From contig CAMVRW010000002.1 in the NCBI GenBank assembly GCA_947169985.1, positions 1 to 26,510 of the forward strand: DNA of 26,510 nt, written 5' to 3'. The position numbers and the translations under genes were made by a program. Below are positions 1 through 26,427 of the stretch, piece by piece; position 1 is the first letter of the stretch, and the number at the start of each line of letters is the position of its first letter. The notes beneath the pieces were generated by a model. The model saw nothing but the letters and a program-made list of their open reading frames with translations, made no database searches and was not told where the DNA came from. This stretch comes from an uncultured Butyrivibrio sp. GTDB lineage: Bacteria; Bacillota; Clostridia; Lachnospirales; Lachnospiraceae.

Positions 1-77
1 ATGCTAAGATCACTGAGATCTACGAGGGTACATCTGAAGTTCAGAGAATGGTTATCTCTGGAGCACTGCTGAAGTAA
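1..77 (+). CDS. bcd: Acyl-CoA dehydrogenase (butyryl-CoA dehydrogenase-like), 3' end only
   Basis: Only the last 24 codons lie in the window, read from base 3 and ending at TAA 75-77. They encode a tail with the pattern KITEIYEGTSEVQRMVISG, which is the conserved C-terminal helix of the acyl-CoA dehydrogenase family, including the YEGT motif near the FAD/CoA site. By family, the enzyme oxidises or reduces a short-chain acyl-CoA with FAD and passes electrons to the electron-transfer flavoprotein. The genes directly downstream are etfB and etfA, the arrangement typical of the butyryl-CoA dehydrogenase/Etf complex of butyrate-forming clostridia, so Bcd is the best guess. Substrate specificity cannot be judged from this fragment. 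Confidence 0.85.
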   Translation, partial: AKITEIYEGTSEVQRMVISGALLK

Positions 78-84
78 AAGTAAT

Positions 85-114
85 CACCTGACGAGGTATT
101 TCACGAGTCTGGTG
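85..114 (+). repeat. GA-hairpin element, copy 1 (bcd-etfB gap)
   Basis: Seen directly: CACC (85-88), T, GAC (90-92), GA, loop GGTATTTCAC (95-104), GA, GTC (107-109), T, GGTG (111-114). The arms pair as 4 bp, a T-T mismatch, 3 bp, then tandem G-A/A-G mismatches closing the loop. A 27-nt block (87-113) recurs at 26340-26366 with 25 of 27 bases identical. The two differences fall on bases that pair with each other (C92/G107 here, T/A there), and the outer C85/G114 pair is A/T there. That pattern suggests selection on an RNA fold. I do not recognise a named family. Role unknown; its position in an operon gap suggests mRNA processing or stability. Confidence 0.7.
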
Positions 115-123
115 TACTACTTT

Positions 124-156
124 GTTCGGGCGAGTGCGTTTGCACGAGAGCCGAAC
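124..156 (+). other. Hairpin upstream of etfB
   Basis: GTTCGG (124-129) pairs with CCGAAC (151-156), and an inner stem GTGC (134-137)/GCAC (142-145) is capped by a GTTT loop. The inner stem is flanked by GA on both sides (132-133 and 146-147), again giving tandem G-A mismatches as in the neighbouring hairpin. There is no T-run, so it is not an intrinsic terminator. It sits about 20 nt before the etfB Shine-Dalgarno AAAGGAG (177-183) and would be part of the bcd-etfB mRNA. Confidence 0.6.
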
Positions 157-191
157 TTCCTTATGAAAACATAGACAAAGGAGAAAATAAA

Positions 192-14390: not shown

Positions 14391-14432
14391 ATTAAAAAAG
14401 TATAAACTATGTTACGGATTGGGAGGAGCAAC

Positions 14433-17400
14433 ATGGTAAAAAGGACGAAAAGGGGAAAAACGGGGGCAAAGGTTTTTGCTGCCATCATGTCTGTAGTACT
14501 GGGACTGTCTAACGTTCCGGGAGCTATGTCAGGTGCTATGGCTTATGCAGAGACCGGAGAAGCTAATGACGCACAGGTGACAGAAGGTGCAGGGGAACAG
14601 GCAAGCAGCGTTGCAAGTACTGATGGTGCTGGTTCTGAAGGCAGCTCTGTAAGCGCCGAAGGCGAAGAGCAAAAGAAATCTTCTGGTGCCGAAGAGAAAC
14701 AGGAAACACCAGGGGAGGATTCTTCAAGCACAGGATCAGGAAGCGAAGATTCTGCAAAGGGAGAAGAGTCTGGCGATGCTAATGAGAAAAGCACCGGAAC
14801 AGGATCTTCTGATAAGGATGAAAAATCAAACTCTTCAGATGAAGCATCCTCAGAAAAGACTGAAACTGTAGAGAAGTCTGATGAGAAAGATGCTGAAGCA
14901 ACAGGCAAGAAGTCATCCGAGAAAACAGCTGATGCTGCGTCAGAATATTCAACATATGATCCTTCTTCATCTTCCAGAGATTTTGATTACAACAAGACAG
15001 ATGTGTGGGATTTCGGCGCAGAGGATCTTGGAGAAAATTACAACAACAGGCTTGATGTTGATACCATCAATGGATTCTATGATGGTGTTGAACCAGGCAG
15101 TACTGGAAAAACTATTGCTTCATTTTCTGTAGATGACGGAGACTTTGTGTTCGAGGATGGCGGATATTCTACTACACATAAACTTAGAACTACAAATACG
15201 TCCTTAACACATGCTGACGAAAAGTCTCTTAAAGACTCTGATGGAAATGTTTATAGTGGATATTTATATTCCAATAAAAGCTCTAATGAGTCTGTGTATC
15301 TTGCATTGGAGTGCCAGGCGGACGACATAATCACTGCTTACGTTTCACGTAACAATGGTGACAGCGAAATTCATTTTGTGAATATGTCTGATTCTAGTGA
15401 TGATACATCCTATACCCATACTTTGGGCAGCTCAATGGTAAGCAAGTTTGTATGCTATCCATCTCAGACAGCCAAGTACAAGTTCTATTCAGCGAATGAG
15501 AAACTGGTTGTAGCAAGAGTTATCCGTGAGCATGCTTCTTATGCGAACCTTTCCGGTTCGGTAAGTGGATTTACAGGAACAGACTCATTTGACGTAGTAT
15601 TTACTAATACAAAGAACGGCAATGAAGTAAAGGCTACTGTTGTTGATGGCAAGTACACAGCTGAGCTTGCTTGCGGCTTTGACTACGAGCTTTCACTTGA
15701 GGGTGCTGATGAATATGTCATCACAACAGACAAGACTGTTAATATTTCAGGTGACGCAGAAATGAATATTGAGGTAAGCTCAGTTGACCTTGTTGAAGTA
15801 TCCGGAACTGTAAAAGGTATTGCTGGGGATGCTGTAGATAAGTTCATTGATGGCGCTGAGTTCACATTCAAAGCACAGGATGAGAATTCTGTATTCGTTC
15901 CTGTCATCAACCTGAAAAAAGTGGGATCAGATATCAAGTTTGAGACCAGGCTTCAGAAGGATATGATCTACGATGTATCTGTTGCAGATAAAGCGCAGGT
16001 TGCAGTGGTTGAAGACTATGATCTTTTGACAACTGAGTTTAAGGCAGATGATGCTGCTATAGAGTTTGAAGCAAAGCCTGTATATAAGGTGACAATTGTT
16101 CCGGAAGGAGCTAGCAAGGAAGACCTTGCAGAGGCTGTATTCACATTCACAAGACTTGATGTGGAAAAAGAGTTCGTACCTGACGGATATGTTTACGAGT
16201 TCACAGGACTTGAAGACATCGCTTTAAGGGATGGTCAGTACGTTGTAAAAGTTACAAATTCAGGAGCTTTTGTACAGAAACTGACTAGCAACCTTATTGT
16301 TAAGGGAGCTAATGTTTCAAAGATCATTAACTTCTCTTCTGATATAACAGAGTGGGATTTCTCTGATGCAGCATTTGCAGCTAAGTTTGCGAACGCAACA
16401 GAAGGCAATTACAACGGACTTTCATGGACAAACGGAAGATCCCATAACGGTGTTTATCTCTATTCCGGAGCTGGCAAGATTTCAGTTCCTGTAAAGGGAG
16501 CATGCCAGATCCAGGTAACAGGAAATTATCAGTATTCATACTACTTTGAGAATGAGTCTGAGGCTACAGTCGGAGTGCAGACCGGTTCCACAAGCCAGAA
16601 TGACACATTCACATATAACTACAAGGGCGGAGCAGGAACTTTTGACATAACAGTTCTTGGCACATCCTATATTACAAAGATTGCGACAGTTTATCAGACA
16701 GAGTACAGGTCAGAGCTTTTGGTTGGCTCTTCAGATAAAGTAGATTTTGCTACAGTAGGCGAAGCTCTTGAAGCAGTTCGTCTAATGGACAGGAAGGACG
16801 GAGAGAGAGTTACAATCAACATCGAGCCAGGCAACTACGAAGAGATGCTTGTTGTTGATGTTCCAGATGTAACACTTGCAAATGCAAGCTCAGCTCCAAC
16901 AAATACACTTACAGATTCAGGTGTTGGTATCGATTCAAATGCTGTTCGTATCACATGGTACTACGGACATGGTTACAGCTACTACAGCATGGGCAGCGAT
17001 TACAAGTATGATGCAGAAGTTCTTGCTGCAAACAAGGCAAATGGCTATGCATCAGTTGCTAACCCTGGCTCAGGAACAGGCACATACTGGAATGCATCAG
17101 TAGTAGTAAATGCATCCGGATTTGAAGCTAAGAATATTATTTTTGAGAACTCATTTAACCAGTATCAGTCACAGAAGGCTGCAGAGGATGTTATCGTTCC
17201 TAATAGCGGAGCTAAAGAAGGAACAGTAGCAAGAGCTTCCATGGCAGCAGGTGACACAACTGTTCAGGAAAAGAAATATGTAGAAAGAGCTGCAGCACTT
17301 GCTCTTACAGCATCAGCTAAGGAGGCATATTTCGAGGGATGTCGCATTGTTGGACGTCAGGATACACTTTACGGTGCAGTAGGAACAACAGCAGCATTCT

Positions 17401-20400
17401 ACAACTGTGCGGTTTACGGCGGTACAGATTATATCTTTGGTGGAATGACAGCGGTATTTGCTAAGTGCGACCTAGTTCTTAACACAAGTGAGGACAAGAA
17501 TGATGTGGCATACATCACAGCAGCTCAGCAGCAGTCAGCATCAAGCCGTGGATATCTGATGTACAACTGTACAGTAAAGAGCACAACTCCTGGTATTGAT
17601 ACAGCATCCCAGTACACATCAAAGCCTGGTCAGTTCGGAAGACCATGGCAGGCAAACACTTCAGAGGCAGTATTCTTTGATACAGTTGTTGAAGCTACCA
17701 ACTGGACTCTTGGAGATGATGGTAAGTATACATACGACGAGAAGTCAGTTGTTTCTCTCATTCAGCCAGAAGGCTGGAATACATCTCTTGGCGGAGAGTC
17801 AGCAAGAAACGTTGAGTATGGCACATTTGAAGTAGCCAAGGTAGATAACAGCTCATCTCGTGTTTCATGGGTACAGCAGCCAAAGGATGCGGTCCTTGCA
17901 GATGGAACAGCTATTTCTGTAGCAGCATTCCTTGGAGAATGGGATCCATTTACAGCAAATGGCGATGACATGACAATCACATTCCCTGACGGAACAAGCC
18001 AGGATGCACCTAAGGCACCTGCAGGAGAGTCACCAAGTCAATCTGGAGTTTATACTCTTTTAGCCGATGATCTTAATGGTTTTGATAAAGGAGATAAAAA
18101 GAACGGAGAAACTGAGGCTGCTGGAACTGATAAATTCTTTACACTTCAGTATGGCGAGAAATCTGCTGTAAACACTAATTATAATAAGGATTGGGAAGAT
18201 GGATTCTCATCTACCAACAGGATAAACCTGGGAGGAAGTGCTACCACTGCACTTAATTCGATCAAGTTTACGACTACTACTGATAATGCCGAATTAAAGG
18301 TATGGTGGGGAAGCAATACTAAGCCATTAGTTCTTCTTGGTTCAGACGGCGCTTCTGTTCAGATTGCAGAGGCAGGAACAAAAGATGCTCTCTATATCAC
18401 AAAATATGTTATTGAGAAAGCCGGAACTTATTTCCTGGGGAGCAGCGGCGGAACAGATTATATTTGCAAGGTCGTTGTAACTGAGAAGACAGAGGAACCA
18501 GCTAAAGTATATACATTCGAGGGTGCTGGTATAGATGCTTTTGCTCAGGGGGCTAAAGAAGATGGCGCTAAAGAAGAAACTGGTACTGATAAATACTTTA
18601 CATTGCTCTACAGTTCCAAGACAAAAGTAGAAGATAAAGAAAAAACATTTGAAGATGAGTACCACGGAACCAGAAGAGTTAACTTTGGTGGTGGAGTAAA
18701 AACAGAAAAGAACTCTGTTAAATTCACTACATCTTCTGATAAAGCCAAGGTAAAGCTTTGGTGGGCAGCTGGCGCTAACGACAGACAGATGGCTATCCTC
18801 GATGCAGAGGGAAAAGTTGTAGTATCTACCAGTGGAACAACCGTAAAGGATGCTGCCTATATTTCAGAGTTCACTCTTGAAAAGGCAGGAACATATTTCC
18901 TTGGTGGCCATGAGAATAATAATTACATTTTCAAGGTTGAAGTAACAGAAGGGGGCTCGGAGGAAGTTGTAAGGGCTAACTGGACAGATGTTGCGGCTCC
19001 TGTGATCAGTTCTGTAGCACTTGATGAGAATGATTCTTCAAAAGTTGTAGTTAAAGTAAAATCTGAGATTGGTACTAACGGTGGAGATGCTCTTGCGGTA
19101 ACTATGTACGATGAGCAGGGCATGGAAAAAGGCTCTTCCAGATCTTTGAAAGAGGGCACAGAGTTTGAGTTTACCTTTACTCCTACCAGAACAGGTAAGT
19201 ACTACTTCACAGCAACTCTTTCAAGGGATGACGTAGAGGAAGTTAAGACAAGTGACAAGTCAAAGGAAATTTCTTTTACCTATGAACTGAAAGCACCTGC
19301 CTTCAAGAATGCAACAAACAAGGGAAATGGAAGCGTTACTGTTAAGTTCTACTCTGTATCAGAGGCTGATGATTATGTACTGACTTATATTGATACAGAA
19401 AATGAGAAATCTTCAAAGAGCGCACGCATAACCCCTAAAGAGGTGGTTTATAACACATCTACAGAGTATGCTTATACTTTTGACGGACTTACAGTTGGAC
19501 ACAAGTATAACTTTGAACTTGTGGCGAAGCGTGGGCAGGAGACATCAGAAGTATCAGTACTTCAGGGACTTGTTGTGACTAAGGAAAGCGGTATTGAATG
19601 GACATTTGCTGCTTTTGGATCAGGCGTTTCAACAAGCTCCACTAACTGTGGCTACAAGACCAATGACAATGGATCTGTAACTGTTTGGAATACAGGAAAT
19701 AAGGGTAAGATCGTTCCTGCCAGCACAGATGGACTTTCATTCTTCTATGCTACACTTCCTGCTGATAAGAACTTCACCTTTACAGCTACAGCAACTATTG
19801 ATACCTGGGCATTCACAAACGGTCAGGAAGGCTTCGGTCTTATGGCTTGTGACAGAGTTGGTGTAAACGGAGATGCCTCAGTTTTCTGGAACAACTCCTA
19901 CATGGCATCAGGTACTAAGGTTGAGTACTACTATGACAAAGAAAAGGGTGAATCAACCTTTGATGAGACTGATTCCAAGATCACTATGAAGCTTGGTCTT
20001 GGTGCTCAGCAGAAGATAGGAGTAACACAAGAGAATCTTGACCTGCTTGAGGCAAATGACACAGAAACAATAAAGAACGATTTCTCAAGTAAGATGTATC
20101 CTCTTGAGATATCCTGTGGAACAAAGGGAACAGGTACATACAACCTCTTTGGAAAAGAGTCTTCAGGAACTGTTCAGGGTACTGTAGACAACACTCTTAC
20201 AAAGGTAAGACTTAGAATCCAGAAGAACAACACAGGATACTTTGTAAGCTACCTTGATGAAAATGACAACGAGCTTTGCACAAGAAAGTTCTATGATACA
20301 GAGGCTCTTTCAAAGCTTGATCCAGACCATGTATATGTTGGATTCTATGCTTCAAGAACCTTTAAGGCTACCTTCTCAGATATCGAGATTGTAAGGACAA

Positions 20401-22676
20401 ATCCTGAGGATGATGCTCCTGCAGAAGATAGAGATATTACATACGTAGCACCAAATTATAAGATTGTTTCTGCAACCTACTCTAATACAGCAAAGTATGA
20501 TCTTTCATACTCAGGTAATGCAGATGGAACCCTTACTATTTCAGATGAGAAGGGAAATGTTTTAGTAAATGCCCAGGAAGTTACAGCTAATGAGACAGTA
20601 ACTGTAACTACTAAGCTGGCAAGGGGCGACAACAAGTTTAATGTTAAGTTTATCCCAAGTGAGTTCTTCTTCCCTGAGGGAGATCAGTACAAGAGACTTT
20701 CTTCCTATGAGATGAGCGAGTTTACTCACACAGTTAAGTTTGAGACCATCAATGATAGCGACAGCGTTTACGTTTCAGCAGATGGTAAGGCTGACGCAGA
20801 TGGTTCAAAAGAAAGTCCTGTTGATATCTACACAGCTGTTAAGTATGTACAGCCTGGTCAGACCATCAGACTTGCAGCCGGTACCTACAGCTTAAGAAGC
20901 ACTGTTAAGGTAGAAAGAGGAATTGACGGAACTCCTTCAAAGCCTATAAAGATGGTGGCTGAAGACGGAAGAGCAATCTTCGACTTTAACAAGTCCTGCG
21001 CAGGATTTATCTTTGCAGGTGATTACTGGTATGTGAATGGAATCGACTGCACAAAGTCAGGTAATTCACTTAAGGGTATCCAGGTATCAGGAAGCCATAT
21101 CACTCTTGAGGATGTTCGTACTTATGAGAATGGTAACACCGGTATCCAGGTAAGCAGATATCTTGGAAGTGATGACAGAGATGAATGGCCAAGCTATGAC
21201 CTTATCCTTAACTGCACATCCTACAGCAATGCGGATGCAGGTTACGAGGATGCTGACGGATTTGCTGCAAAGCTTACAGTTGGCGAAGGCGTAGTATTTG
21301 ACGGATGTATTGCATACAACAACGCTGATGATGGATGGGATCTCTTTGCAAAGGTAGAGACCGGATCCATCGGACAGGTTACTATCAGAAACTGCGTTGC
21401 ATTTGCAAACGGTTATGGCGTTGATGGAACAAACGAAGGTAACGGTAATGGCTTTAAGATGGGTGGATCAAGTATCAATGGTCCTCACAAGCTCATCAAC
21501 TCTGTTGCATGGGGCAATAAGGCTAAGGGTATCGATTCCAACTCGGGTCCTGATATCCAGGTTTACAACAGCATGTCCTTCAACAACGGAAGCAACAACG
21601 TAGCTCTTTATACAAACGATACTGCTAACACTGATTATCTGGTTGATGGAGTTATCTCCTTCAGAACAACCGGTGAAAGCACAAATGAAAATATCAAGGC
21701 TAAGGGCACACAGGATAAGTCCAAGATCTATGGCAAGAAGAACTTCTTCTGGCAGGATGGAAAGTCAGCAAATAGCGAAGGACTTGCAGTGACAAGCGAC
21801 TGGTTTGTATCACTTGATGCTCCGTACGCTAACTCATCAGATCCTTACGCAGTGGCAGCTTCCCTTAGAACCTCCAACGGATCAATTGATCTTGGAGACT
21901 TCATGAAGCTCACCGACAAGGCCATAGAGGCTATGTCTGCAGCTGGTTTAAGTGCTTCAGAAGTGGCAGCTAACATTGGCGGAAACTACGAAGCAGTTAC
22001 AGATGAAAGAAATATCGCAGGCTCTGCAGATGATGCTAAGAATGATGAAGAGACTGAGGAAGAGAACGGCGGATCTGGAGAAGCTGGTTCAGGTTCTTCA
22101 ACATCAGGAAGCACATCCGGAAGTTCATCTTCAGGAAGTGGATCAGGAAGCGGATCCGGTAGCTCAGAAAGCTCAGACAGCACAGGAAGCGAATCCGGCA
22201 GCAGCTCTGAGAGCACATCAGCAGCTTCAAGCGCTTCGAGCTCAAGCACTACAGGGACTACAATTCCTACCGGAGAAGTGGCTCAGACAGGTACAACAGT
22301 TACCGGTCAGACAAATACTCCTGTAGTAGCCGGTGCAACCCGTGAGAATGGTACTTCATCAGATAATGGAACCGGATCATCTGAAGGCACACAGTCAGAT
22401 AATGGTTCTTCAAACGAGGCTGCTCAGGCAGACAGCAGTGCAACTCAGGAAAATGTTCAGCAGGATAACAGCGCTGCAACTGAGAACGCTGCAGTAGACA
22501 ATGGCTCAGATAAGACCATCGTTGATGAGCAGGCTCCAAAGAGCGATAAGCCAGAGAGAAAGGTTCCTGTAGCTCCTATTGCAGGAGGAACAGTAGTAGT
22601 GGTTGCAGCAGCTGCAATCGCAGTTAAGACAGGACTTATGGCTAAGCTCCTTGCATTTTTGCACATCATAAAGTGA
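14433..22676 (+). CDS. Giant surface pectinase: CE8 pectin methylesterase plus PL9 pectate lyase
   Basis: A 2747-residue secreted enzyme. Signal peptide 1-39; acidic Ser/Glu linker 40-170; unassigned beta domain about 189-375; three short sandwiches about 375-630; beta domain 632-765; CE8 methylesterase about 766-1120 with GRQDTLYG (D977, acid/base), TDYIFGG (D999, nucleophile) and GRPW (1069-1072); two tandem copies of a roughly 150-residue domain (1206-1356, 1358-1507); FN3-like region 1520-1720; jelly-roll-like domain 1720-1990; PL9 lyase about 2109-2516 with D2275, D2299, D2300 and D2303, spaced as the Ca2+ ligands I recall for Dickeya PelL, and GNGFKMGG with K2342 as probable base; Ser/Gly linker 2542-2709; hydrophobic helix 2711-2735 with a short tail but no LPXTG. 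De-esterification then lets the lyase cut. GGGAGGAG selects ATG 14433 over ATG 14409. Confidence 0.93.
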   Translation: MVKRTKRGKTGAKVFAAIMSVVLGLSNVPGAMSGAMAYAETGEANDAQVTEGAGEQASSVASTDGAGSEGSSVSAEGEEQKKSSGAEEKQETPGEDSSSTGSGSEDSAKGEESGDANEKSTGTGSSDKDEKSNSSDEASSEKTETVEKSDEKDAEATGKKSSEKTADAASEYSTYDPSSSSRDFDYNKTDVWDFGAEDLGENYNNRLDVDTINGFYDGVEPGSTGKTIASFSVDDGDFVFEDGGYSTTHKLRTTNTSLTHADEKSLKDSDGNVYSGYLYSNKSSNESVYLALECQADDIITAYVSRNNGDSEIHFVNMSDSSDDTSYTHTLGSSMVSKFVCYPSQTAKYKFYSANEKLVVARVIREHASYANLSGSVSGFTGTDSFDVVFTNTKNGNEVKATVVDGKYTAELACGFDYELSLEGADEYVITTDKTVNISGDAEMNIEVSSVDLVEVSGTVKGIAGDAVDKFIDGAEFTFKAQDENSVFVPVINLKKVGSDIKFETRLQKDMIYDVSVADKAQVAVVEDYDLLTTEFKADDAAIEFEAKPVYKVTIVPEGASKEDLAEAVFTFTRLDVEKEFVPDGYVYEFTGLEDIALRDGQYVVKVTNSGAFVQKLTSNLIVKGANVSKIINFSSDITEWDFSDAAFAAKFANATEGNYNGLSWTNGRSHNGVYLYSGAGKISVPVKGACQIQVTGNYQYSYYFENESEATVGVQTGSTSQNDTFTYNYKGGAGTFDITVLGTSYITKIATVYQTEYRSELLVGSSDKVDFATVGEALEAVRLMDRKDGERVTINIEPGNYEEMLVVDVPDVTLANASSAPTNTLTDSGVGIDSNAVRITWYYGHGYSYYSMGSDYKYDAEVLAANKANGYASVANPGSGTGTYWNASVVVNASGFEAKNIIFENSFNQYQSQKAAEDVIVPNSGAKEGTVARASMAAGDTTVQEKKYVERAAALALTASAKEAYFEGCRIVGRQDTLYGAVGTTAAFYNCAVYGGTDYIFGGMTAVFAKCDLVLNTSEDKNDVAYITAAQQQSASSRGYLMYNCTVKSTTPGIDTASQYTSKPGQFGRPWQANTSEAVFFDTVVEATNWTLGDDGKYTYDEKSVVSLIQPEGWNTSLGGESARNVEYGTFEVAKVDNSSSRVSWVQQPKDAVLADGTAISVAAFLGEWDPFTANGDDMTITFPDGTSQDAPKAPAGESPSQSGVYTLLADDLNGFDKGDKKNGETEAAGTDKFFTLQYGEKSAVNTNYNKDWEDGFSSTNRINLGGSATTALNSIKFTTTTDNAELKVWWGSNTKPLVLLGSDGASVQIAEAGTKDALYITKYVIEKAGTYFLGSSGGTDYICKVVVTEKTEEPAKVYTFEGAGIDAFAQGAKEDGAKEETGTDKYFTLLYSSKTKVEDKEKTFEDEYHGTRRVNFGGGVKTEKNSVKFTTSSDKAKVKLWWAAGANDRQMAILDAEGKVVVSTSGTTVKDAAYISEFTLEKAGTYFLGGHENNNYIFKVEVTEGGSEEVVRANWTDVAAPVISSVALDENDSSKVVVKVKSEIGTNGGDALAVTMYDEQGMEKGSSRSLKEGTEFEFTFTPTRTGKYYFTATLSRDDVEEVKTSDKSKEISFTYELKAPAFKNATNKGNGSVTVKFYSVSEADDYVLTYIDTENEKSSKSARITPKEVVYNTSTEYAYTFDGLTVGHKYNFELVAKRGQETSEVSVLQGLVVTKESGIEWTFAAFGSGVSTSSTNCGYKTNDNGSVTVWNTGNKGKIVPASTDGLSFFYATLPADKNFTFTATATIDTWAFTNGQEGFGLMACDRVGVNGDASVFWNNSYMASGTKVEYYYDKEKGESTFDETDSKITMKLGLGAQQKIGVTQENLDLLEANDTETIKNDFSSKMYPLEISCGTKGTGTYNLFGKESSGTVQGTVDNTLTKVRLRIQKNNTGYFVSYLDENDNELCTRKFYDTEALSKLDPDHVYVGFYASRTFKATFSDIEIVRTNPEDDAPAEDRDITYVAPNYKIVSATYSNTAKYDLSYSGNADGTLTISDEKGNVLVNAQEVTANETVTVTTKLARGDNKFNVKFIPSEFFFPEGDQYKRLSSYEMSEFTHTVKFETINDSDSVYVSADGKADADGSKESPVDIYTAVKYVQPGQTIRLAAGTYSLRSTVKVERGIDGTPSKPIKMVAEDGRAIFDFNKSCAGFIFAGDYWYVNGIDCTKSGNSLKGIQVSGSHITLEDVRTYENGNTGIQVSRYLGSDDRDEWPSYDLILNCTSYSNADAGYEDADGFAAKLTVGEGVVFDGCIAYNNADDGWDLFAKVETGSIGQVTIRNCVAFANGYGVDGTNEGNGNGFKMGGSSINGPHKLINSVAWGNKAKGIDSNSGPDIQVYNSMSFNNGSNNVALYTNDTANTDYLVDGVISFRTTGESTNENIKAKGTQDKSKIYGKKNFFWQDGKSANSEGLAVTSDWFVSLDAPYANSSDPYAVAASLRTSNGSIDLGDFMKLTDKAIEAMSAAGLSASEVAANIGGNYEAVTDERNIAGSADDAKNDEETEEENGGSGEAGSGSSTSGSTSGSSSSGSGSGSGSGSSESSDSTGSESGSSSESTSAASSASSSSTTGTTIPTGEVAQTGTTVTGQTNTPVVAGATRENGTSSDNGTGSSEGTQSDNGSSNEAAQADSSATQENVQQDNSAATENAAVDNGSDKTIVDEQAPKSDKPERKVPVAPIAGGTVVVVAAAAIAVKTGLMAKLLAFLHIIK
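18048..18952 (+). repeat. Tandem duplicated domain inside the pectinase
   Basis: Two copies of about 150 residues: 18048-18500 and 18506-18952. Shared landmarks in order are VYT, GTDK(F/Y)FTL, R(I/V)N(L/F)GG, NS(I/V)KFTT, a (V/L)WW pair, DA(L/A)YI, EKAGTYFLG and a closing K(V)VTE-type strand. Placement between CE8 and FN3-like domains suggests paired carbohydrate-binding modules, but I do not recognise the family. Confidence 0.75.
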
Positions 22677-26256: not shown

Positions 26257-26327
26257 GCGGGTGTAGTTCAATGGTAGAACACCAGCCTTCCAAGCTGGAT
26301 ACGTGGGTTCGATTCCCATCACCCGCT
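26257..26327 (+). tRNA. tRNA-Gly, anticodon TCC
   Basis: Acceptor GCGGGTG/CACCCGC (26320-26326), discriminator T26327, D arm GTTC/GAAC, anticodon stem CCAGC/GCTGG with loop CTTCCAA (anticodon TCC), T loop TTCGATT. CCA is not encoded. It lies 20 nt after tRNA-Pro and is probably cut from the same transcript. Confidence 0.96.
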
Positions 26328-26336
26328 TTGAGTAGA

Positions 26337-26368
26337 GAACCTGATGAGGTATTTCACGAATCTGGTTC
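26337..26368 (+). repeat. GA-hairpin element, copy 2 (tRNA cluster)
   Basis: GAACC (26337-26341), T, GAT, GA, loop GGTATTTCAC (26348-26357), GA, ATC, T, GGTTC (26364-26368). The arms give 5 bp, a T-T mismatch, 3 bp and tandem G-A mismatches. The loop is identical to copy 1 (95-104), while the base differences in the arms keep pairing. It begins nine bases after tRNA-Gly. Its 3' arm runs into the palindrome TGGTTCGAACCA (26363-26374). Confidence 0.7.
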
Positions 26369-26381
26369 GAACCATGGGTGG

Positions 26382-26412
26382 CCACTTAGCGAGGTTTTAT
26401 CGAGCTTAGTGG
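26382..26412 (+). repeat. GA-hairpin element, copy 3 (divergent sequence, same architecture)
   Basis: CCACT (26382-26386), T, AGC, GA, loop GGTTTTATC (26393-26401), GA, GCT, T, AGTGG (26408-26412). It shows 5 bp, a T-T mismatch, 3 bp, tandem G-A mismatches and a loop that starts GGT and ends C. The arm sequences are unrelated to copies 1 and 2, yet every structural landmark is kept. Flanking GGG (26376-26378) and CCC (26418-26420) may extend it. Confidence 0.6.
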
Positions 26413-26427
26413 AGCATCCCAAAGCAG

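Follow-up and report, generated by a model that had tools for sequence, protein, structure and literature searches.

Two-hairpin repeats anchored at gene and transcript 3′ ends in Butyrivibrio, probably a new family of small nonautonomous mobile elements

Several families of short repeats offer points of comparison for the sequences described here. REPs are short, dispersed extragenic palindromes of gene 3′ regions, for which recognition of a folded single strand has been suggested (excerpts of PMC3116915 and PMC1590033), and REPINs have been linked to RAYT (excerpt of PMC3116915). The 50-bp region that follows a stop codon is a preferred place for stem-loops, and REPs are concentrated at the 3′ ends of coding regions (the same excerpt of PMC1590033). 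CIR, ERIC, RUP, and Correia are repeats of ca. 100 to 200 bp with highly paired transcripts; among these, CIR is a two-arm repeat without a terminal inverted repeat, and ERIC copies are cotranscribed with their neighbors and have been tied to mRNA stability (excerpt of PMC2229807). Finally, the Clostridiales-1 sequence was scored as a probable RNA that is probably not cis-regulatory (excerpt of PMC2864571).

We analyzed a stretch of 26,510 nucleotides from an uncultured Butyrivibrio sp. (here called the window), in which all of the features given below lie on the forward strand. A sequence-only reading had pointed to a hairpin at 85..114 that recurs at 26337..26368, and this proved accurate. 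The first copy reads CACC-T-GAC-GA-GGTATTTCAC-GA-GTC-T-GGTG and the second GAACC-T-GAT-GA-GGTATTTCAC-GA-ATC-T-GGTTC, so that the two agree fully in the loop, the GA/GA pairs, and the T-T mismatch. The compensatory changes it had claimed are likewise correct, the second copy having T-A for C92-G107 and A-T for C85-G114. The 14-mer core occurs without mismatch exactly twice in the window, twice in the whole of its own assembly, and zero times in the control reading; chance is ruled out as the source of the recurrence. Both places folded better than dinucleotide shuffles, but modestly so (z scores of −2.13 and −2.15).

Each of these hairpins is one half of a larger two-hairpin element. The first element, type A, spans 77..166 (ca. 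90 nt; 102.5 bits and E of 1.1e-23 with covariance model R1 in its own genome). The stop codon of the upstream gene lies at 75..77 (…VQRMVISGALLK*, from the translation of 3-77); its final base, at 77, opens the basal stem of type A and is also where the R1 match begins. The left arm of this stem, AAAGTA (77..82), pairs with its right arm, TACTTT (118..123), as indicated by alignment A5, in which pairs 1-48 to 6-43 covary; in the predicted fold of 80-165 the left arm is partly paired. Within the stem lies the first hairpin, with its T-T mismatch and tandem G-A pairs (85..114), which sequence, fold, and covariation all support. A second hairpin (GTTCGGGCGAGTGC..GCACGAGAGCCGAAC) follows at 124..156; it was delineated from the fold and from helices 3 and 4 of A5, in which 9/11 pairs show double changes. 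The element closes with an unpaired tail, TTCCTTATGA (157..166), that is fairly conserved by column counts.

The second element, type B, occupies 26328..26421 (ca. 95 nt), with an R2 match at 26328-26427 (112.1 bits and E of 1.2e-28 in its own genome). As the sequence-only reading had stated, this copy follows a tRNA: tRNA-Gly(tcc), identified by ARAGORN and Rfam at 26257..26327, lies directly 5′ of it. Sequence, fold, and covariation again support both of its hairpins, at 26337..26368 and 26382..26412. The latter, CCACT-T-AGC-GA-GGTTTTATC-GA-GCT-T-AGTGG, is the third copy of the sequence-only reading; it has the same build, with the T-T mismatch three pairs below the tandem G-A, and is enclosed by a stem, TGGGTG/CATCCCA, that differs among copies.

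Type A lies between a gene that we take to be bcd, from its protein tail (VQRMVISGALLK) and the operon order, and etfB-etfA, which match Pfam ETF and ETF_alpha above the cut-off and NCBIfam models below theirs. Because bcd-etfB-etfA presumably serves butyrate synthesis, we would not retain the earlier description of this operon as catabolic. The same operon holds a Clostridiales-1 RNA (RF01699; 984..1135; Rfam, 95.4 bits), which stands directly behind the etfB stop codon (etfB ends at 983) and fills the etfB-etfA spacer. The sequences at its two ends, GTGATATA and TATATCAC, are complementary, and some relatives have short remnants in which one end or both have been kept. Its position behind a stop codon, together with its presence or absence in relatives, suggests that Clostridiales-1 is a further element that lives as types A and B do. 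Farther along the window, 14409-22676 is a single 2755-codon open reading frame.

Searches with covariance models, R1 built from 17 type A copies and R2 from 18 type B copies, recovered many further copies in this genome and in relatives, with pairing kept, much as the sequence-only reading had anticipated. In its own genome R1 gives 6 matches at E of ≤1e-8, and R2 gives 7 with E below 1e-22 among the matches listed; at E of ≤0.001 there are at least 15 R1 and at least 18 R2 matches, sets that overlap and mix the two types because the models cross-match through the shared hairpin. At this latter threshold R1 matched 35/37 and R2 33/37 genomes of the same genus, and neither matched any of 24 genomes of other genera. 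Type A (R1, E of ≤1e-8) is present in 61/79 genomes of Butyrivibrio, with up to 32 copies in one; the genomes that lack it at this threshold include G008, G041, G053, and G059. BLAST of each unit against 99 genomes agreed with this distribution, one unit matching its own genus only and the other its own genus plus six weak matches (E of 5e-5 to 0.01). The hairpin itself is more widespread and is found in several other scaffolds in Lachnospiraceae. A strict hairpin-only pattern occurs in at least 117 stretches of the species-genome collection, and the matches listed include Butyrivibrio, Acetatifactor, Mediterraneibacter, Faecalicatena, Enterocloster, Hungatella, and other Lachnospiraceae, the remaining titles among them carrying broader labels (Clostridium sp., Clostridiaceae, Ruminococcus, and Eubacteriales).

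In several Lachnospiraceae (L316, L343, L354, L371, L373, L393, and others) the same hairpin is embedded in a long, imperfect palindrome; the outer stem of this palindrome is not the same from copy to copy but looks complementary. In another scaffold (L298, L325, L347, L360, and L366) it lies directly 3′ of a TATAAT-like word, e.g., GGTATAATATGAACACTT, which in some copies is repeated at the far end; to judge by its letters, this word is possibly a promoter carried by the repeat.

The sequence-only reading recognized no named RNA family here, and Rfam bears this out: no family covers type A or type B (E of up to 5 on stretches with elements), and none overlaps the hairpins at 18 other loci in other scaffolds. 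Nor did the open-licence full texts that we searched contain a description of these elements. Plasmid and phage collections (the latter searched with type B) gave no match at the sensitivity used, and hits of the 14-mer in viral contigs were taken for chance, the word being short.

That the repeats are held together by a fold, rather than by a DNA word, is borne out by the covariation counts, which may reflect either selection on the fold or its joint copying. Two alignments, A5 with 52 type A copies (48 distinct) and A6 with 62 type B copies (59 distinct), come from a fit to the model structure and so lean towards it. In A5, 21/25 pairs change on both sides, with 169 double against 10 one-sided cells and 99.5% paired; in A6, 18/22 pairs do so, with 217 double against 8 one-sided cells and 97.1% paired, rows from different species at one site not being independent in these counts. 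The covariation scores of both alignments were reached by 0/500 shuffles, and when the partner was slid by one to three columns, pairing fell to 15 to 39%. Smaller unfitted alignments concur (double changes in 10/25 and 13/22 pairs). One measure of the five, "further standard pair types," exceeded the shuffles in A5 (0/500) and was not above them in A6 or in A1 and A2, which are plain MAFFT alignments under a structure written from the fold (499, 481, and 382 of 500 shuffles as high for A1, A2, and A6, respectively).

Within A5 and A6 the T-T mismatch is retained in 51/52, 62/62, and 61/62 hairpins and the tandem G-A pairs in 46/52, 62/62, and 62/62, and both are strand-specific features. The loop and GA pairs, described as constant in the sequence-only reading, proved not to be essential in a further set of 20 type A copies at 19 sites (two of them orthologous), hand-picked rather than random, from genomes G025, G023, and G035. 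Fifteen of these 20 have a paired first hairpin with neither tandem GA nor T-T; the constant motif is thus one version of the first hairpin and not the heart of the element.

What the copies share most clearly is their place. Among type A copies (51 with distinct flanks), 43/50 begin at the stop codon of an open reading frame on the same strand; the window's own copy, whose flank is too short, is excluded from this count and had its stop codon read directly, and one of the 43 was script-labeled a terminator, with an ORF stop at −7. The further type A copies fall 10 directly behind terminators, 10 at stops, and 0 elsewhere. For type B (n = 57), 25 copies immediately follow an intrinsic terminator, 14 start at a stop codon, 6 come after a tRNA, 1 is within 13 to 60 nt of a stop, and 11 are elsewhere. 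The stop anchoring is partly built in, since the first bases of the element themselves contain stop codons: placed at random on the same strand, they produce what looks like a stop in 40% of cases for type A and 25% for type B. The type B stop count (15/56) is therefore not above expectation, whereas type A stop anchoring (43/47) exceeds its built-in rate; the same caveat applies to the further type A stop cases, in 6/10 of which the stop lies inside the element. Built-in stops explain neither the terminator class (strict terminators 5′ of type B in 21/56 copies versus 0.5% of random places) nor the unaltered C terminus of bcd. The protein end SGALLK* is the same with and without an element, which indicates that the element there begins at the true end of the gene.

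The element content of these sites is also far from stable. Seven copies in one genome (G025, L445-L451) are 91 to 97% alike, and the upstream flanks of their best pairs are just 54 to 62% alike; near identity of the copies within unrelated flanks implies that they spread recently. At the bcd-etfB spacer, 58 rows (57 loci of the genus and one from another member of the Lachnospiraceae), with states assigned by sequence patterns, comprise 7 full elements, 31 with none, 4 composite variants, 4 remnants with the element's 3′ end, and 12 with only its 5′ end. The full state requires 7 changes on the EtfB tree and is as scattered as shuffled labels. One remnant fuses the first ten and the last ten bases of type A. 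At the same spacer in another genome (L232, G055), a unit of ca. 100 nt is tandemly repeated in about three copies, and every copy has a hairpin and a ribosome-binding-site-like AAGGAG of its own.

A comparison of three close species (G016, G045, and G034), in which we take the gene names hbd and bcd as read, found several spacers with different elements, remnants, or nothing. Before hbd, two of the three carry type A and the third (G034), at the corresponding point, a Clostridiales-1-like sequence, identified by reading against the site in G016 and G045. The hbd-bcd spacer exists in three different versions within almost identical flanks, and two type B copies are each present in just one of the species, the G034 copy directly behind a terminator. 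One of the 12 hairpins compared (G045:344586) has no anchor in the other two genomes. A plain terminator hairpin around position 22288 of G034 (L441) differs from its G016 and G045 counterparts in both arms. Since the sequence around it is nearly the same in all three, it looks as though hairpins in general are rewritten as units.

We consider it probable, by a modest measure, that types A and B constitute a new REP/CIR-like family of nonautonomous mobile elements of the Lachnospiraceae, ca. 85 to 100 nt long and targeted to 3′ ends. One strand of each element would fold into two hairpins, and the fold may have been kept because the mobilizing machinery recognizes the folded strand, be it RNA or single-stranded DNA; alternatively, copying or recombination may replace both arms at once. 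New copies would land with their 5′ end against the 3′ terminus of a gene or transcript (a stop codon, the T-run of a terminator, or the 3′ end of a tRNA), in the orientation of the upstream gene. Once landed they presumably do little harm and serve no strong host function, becoming intercistronic or 3′-untranslated-region hairpins, and the spacers would then turn over through exchange and through deletions that spare the element ends. The sequence-only reading had held that a match to a known DNA repeat would tell against a selected RNA fold. That expectation came out half and half: no known family was matched, yet the elements behave as a dispersed mobile repeat.

Several observations sit uneasily with a mobile element. 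The copies outside the 3′-end classes or further off number 11/57 for type B and 7/50 for type A. No terminal inverted repeats are visible, and the aligned unit ends are not complementary by eye; T-runs flank some terminator insertions on both sides, with no clean duplication seen in the three close species. Plasmids and phages gave no match, as noted above, and our search of the genomes yielded no mobilizing enzyme. Y1 transposase (PF01797) had no match in the element-carrying genomes G000, G020, and G023 (assembly completeness of 67%, 83%, and 99%, respectively) and did match in G008 and G017, both of which are without elements. RVT_1 had no match in G023, G025, G034, and G045, several of them rich in copies. 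Neither family tracks the elements, and we accordingly rejected both RAYT/Y1 and an RVT_1 reverse transcriptase as requirements.

A Shine-Dalgarno (SD) sequence and start codon lie within 200 nt 3′ of the element in 30/50 type A copies (12% at random) and in 18/58 type B copies (9% at random), and the intercistronic placement of type A could also be explained by a host function. This brings in the main rival to a mobile origin, namely, that these are mRNA hairpins behind stop codons that serve as intercistronic signals for stability, processing, or insulation, with position and strand under selection. We regard it as unlikely for the family as a whole, although some type A copies may have a host role. 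Much of the placement is what such a signal would predict. The upstream neighbor is on the same strand in 36/38 type A and 34/39 type B copies (genes being called by a simple longest-ORF rule), and in 15/50 type A copies a start codon 20 to 31 nt behind the element leaves it filling the gap between stop and SD. The T-T and G-A features are strand specific and, in A5 and A6, nearly invariant, and a preference of stem-loops and REPs for the region behind stops has been published (excerpt of PMC1590033).

Against this stand the many copies directly behind terminators. The sequence-only reading had thought a processing or stability signal plausible, and such a role is possible for the hairpins; as originally worded, however, the idea finds no support, and 25/57 type B and 10/20 further type A copies lie at places that most upstream transcripts should no longer reach. 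Close species also differ at a shared operon site, where elements have been lost or exchanged for others, and the GA/T-T build is missing from 15/20 further copies. Orientation, too, is biased but not strict in Lachnospiraceae contigs. By the same ORF rule, 115/138 hairpins among the matches listed there lie outside called ORFs, and these comprise 56 in sense orientation beside 16 antisense, 13 divergent, and 12 convergent, with 18 lacking a neighbor on one side. Nor is pairing of the tail with the next SD general. In the window, the tail TTCCTTATGA is complementary to the next SD, and pairing is predicted at a probability of >0.6 in 5/19 scored type A copies (0.73 for the window's copy), with a mean of 0.264 versus 0.106 for shuffled tails; the scored set comprised copies with a nearby start codon, one further copy without a recognizable tail being dropped. 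As a general anti-Shine-Dalgarno, the tail was rejected (mean unpaired SD, 0.485 versus 0.543 with shuffled tails).

A second possibility, which we think quite improbable, is a mobile RNA cassette that spreads via RNA 3′ ends, the folded RNA being attached to such an end, or copied beside it, before it is fixed in the chromosome. What suggests it is that cellular RNAs end, or can be cut, at each of the three landing places: the terminator U-run, the mature 3′ end of a tRNA, and the stop codon. The various scaffolds (A, B, others, and Clostridiales-1) would then be interchangeable at one site. If true, this would amount to transposition without terminal repeats, a known transposase, or a required RVT_1 reverse transcriptase.

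More doubtful again, and in our estimation very unlikely, is that the pairing is a mutational by-product of palindromic DNA, generated by template switching without selection on the fold. It would account for the near absence of G-U intermediates (the 10 and 8 one-sided cells of A5 and A6), for the joint change of both arms at hbd-bcd in the three close species within nearly identical flanks, and for the neighboring plain terminator hairpin that also differs in both arms. The scarcity of G-U steps is, in our judgment, unusual for slow compensatory evolution and suggests that both arms were replaced together, through exchange between copies or through copying. The retention of the T-T mismatch, however, speaks against simple palindrome correction, which would erase it. 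The tandem G-A is likewise kept in A5 and A6, though absent from 15/20 further copies. Least credible of all is a gene-specific cis-regulator (a riboswitch or protein-binding leader) or a small RNA gene, for although the conserved loops, the noncanonical pairs, and the recurrence of one hairpin in many Lachnospiraceae would suit it, the neighbors are functionally mixed (Etf genes, tRNAs, and unrelated ORFs), the elements are anchored to the end of the upstream gene rather than to the downstream gene, and copies are freely lost and match no Rfam family.

On the reading we favor, that of a family of 3′-end-targeted mobile elements, an isolated hairpin becomes part of a defined and searchable group of sequences whose landing rule is unusually precise and whose hosts are a major group of butyrate producers. 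How a sequence locates a terminator, a tRNA end, or a stop codon when no known transposase is involved thus has a natural test case here. The reading also places the Rfam orphan Clostridiales-1, which behaves similarly in these spacers, in a common frame. It also carries a warning, namely, that even very strong covariation is not by itself proof of a cis-regulatory RNA.

Two structural resemblances are soon set aside. The type A second hairpin is not an intrinsic terminator; it is followed by TTCCTTATGA, which has no U-run, and the terminators lie upstream of the elements. A hammerhead ribozyme was considered on account of the word CTGATGA...GAA; there was no match to a hammerhead model, and in A6 the position following CTGA shows covariation with a partner (pair 18-33), which a hammerhead core would not require. 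The hairpin shares tandem G-A pairs with the kink-turn but lacks its three-nucleotide bulge.

The closer comparisons are with dispersed elements. Group IIC introns insert behind intrinsic terminators, oriented with the transcript, and many type A and B copies lie in just this position; at ca. 90 nt, however, the latter have no intron domains, and several copy-rich genomes have no RVT_1 match. Types A and B differ from ERIC, RUP, and Correia, with which they were compared by description only, in their host group and in having no visible terminal inverted repeats. CIR, likewise compared by description, is nearer in build, since types A and B also consist of two arms joined by a linker and have no terminal inverted repeat. 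With the REP/REPIN-RAYT system they share the character of short palindromic repeats present in many copies, mostly outside genes. Unlike that system, types A and B need no Y1 gene to be present, they carry two different hairpins one after the other on the same strand rather than forming inverted doublets, they have the T-T and tandem G-A build, and their 5′ end is set at a stop codon, terminator, or tRNA end. Clostridiales-1 differs from them in sequence and fold, and RF01699 matches neither type. In its behavior, however, it is their counterpart: it occurs in the same window and in relatives, lies behind a stop codon, is present in some genomes and absent from others, and seems in one case to swap with type A.
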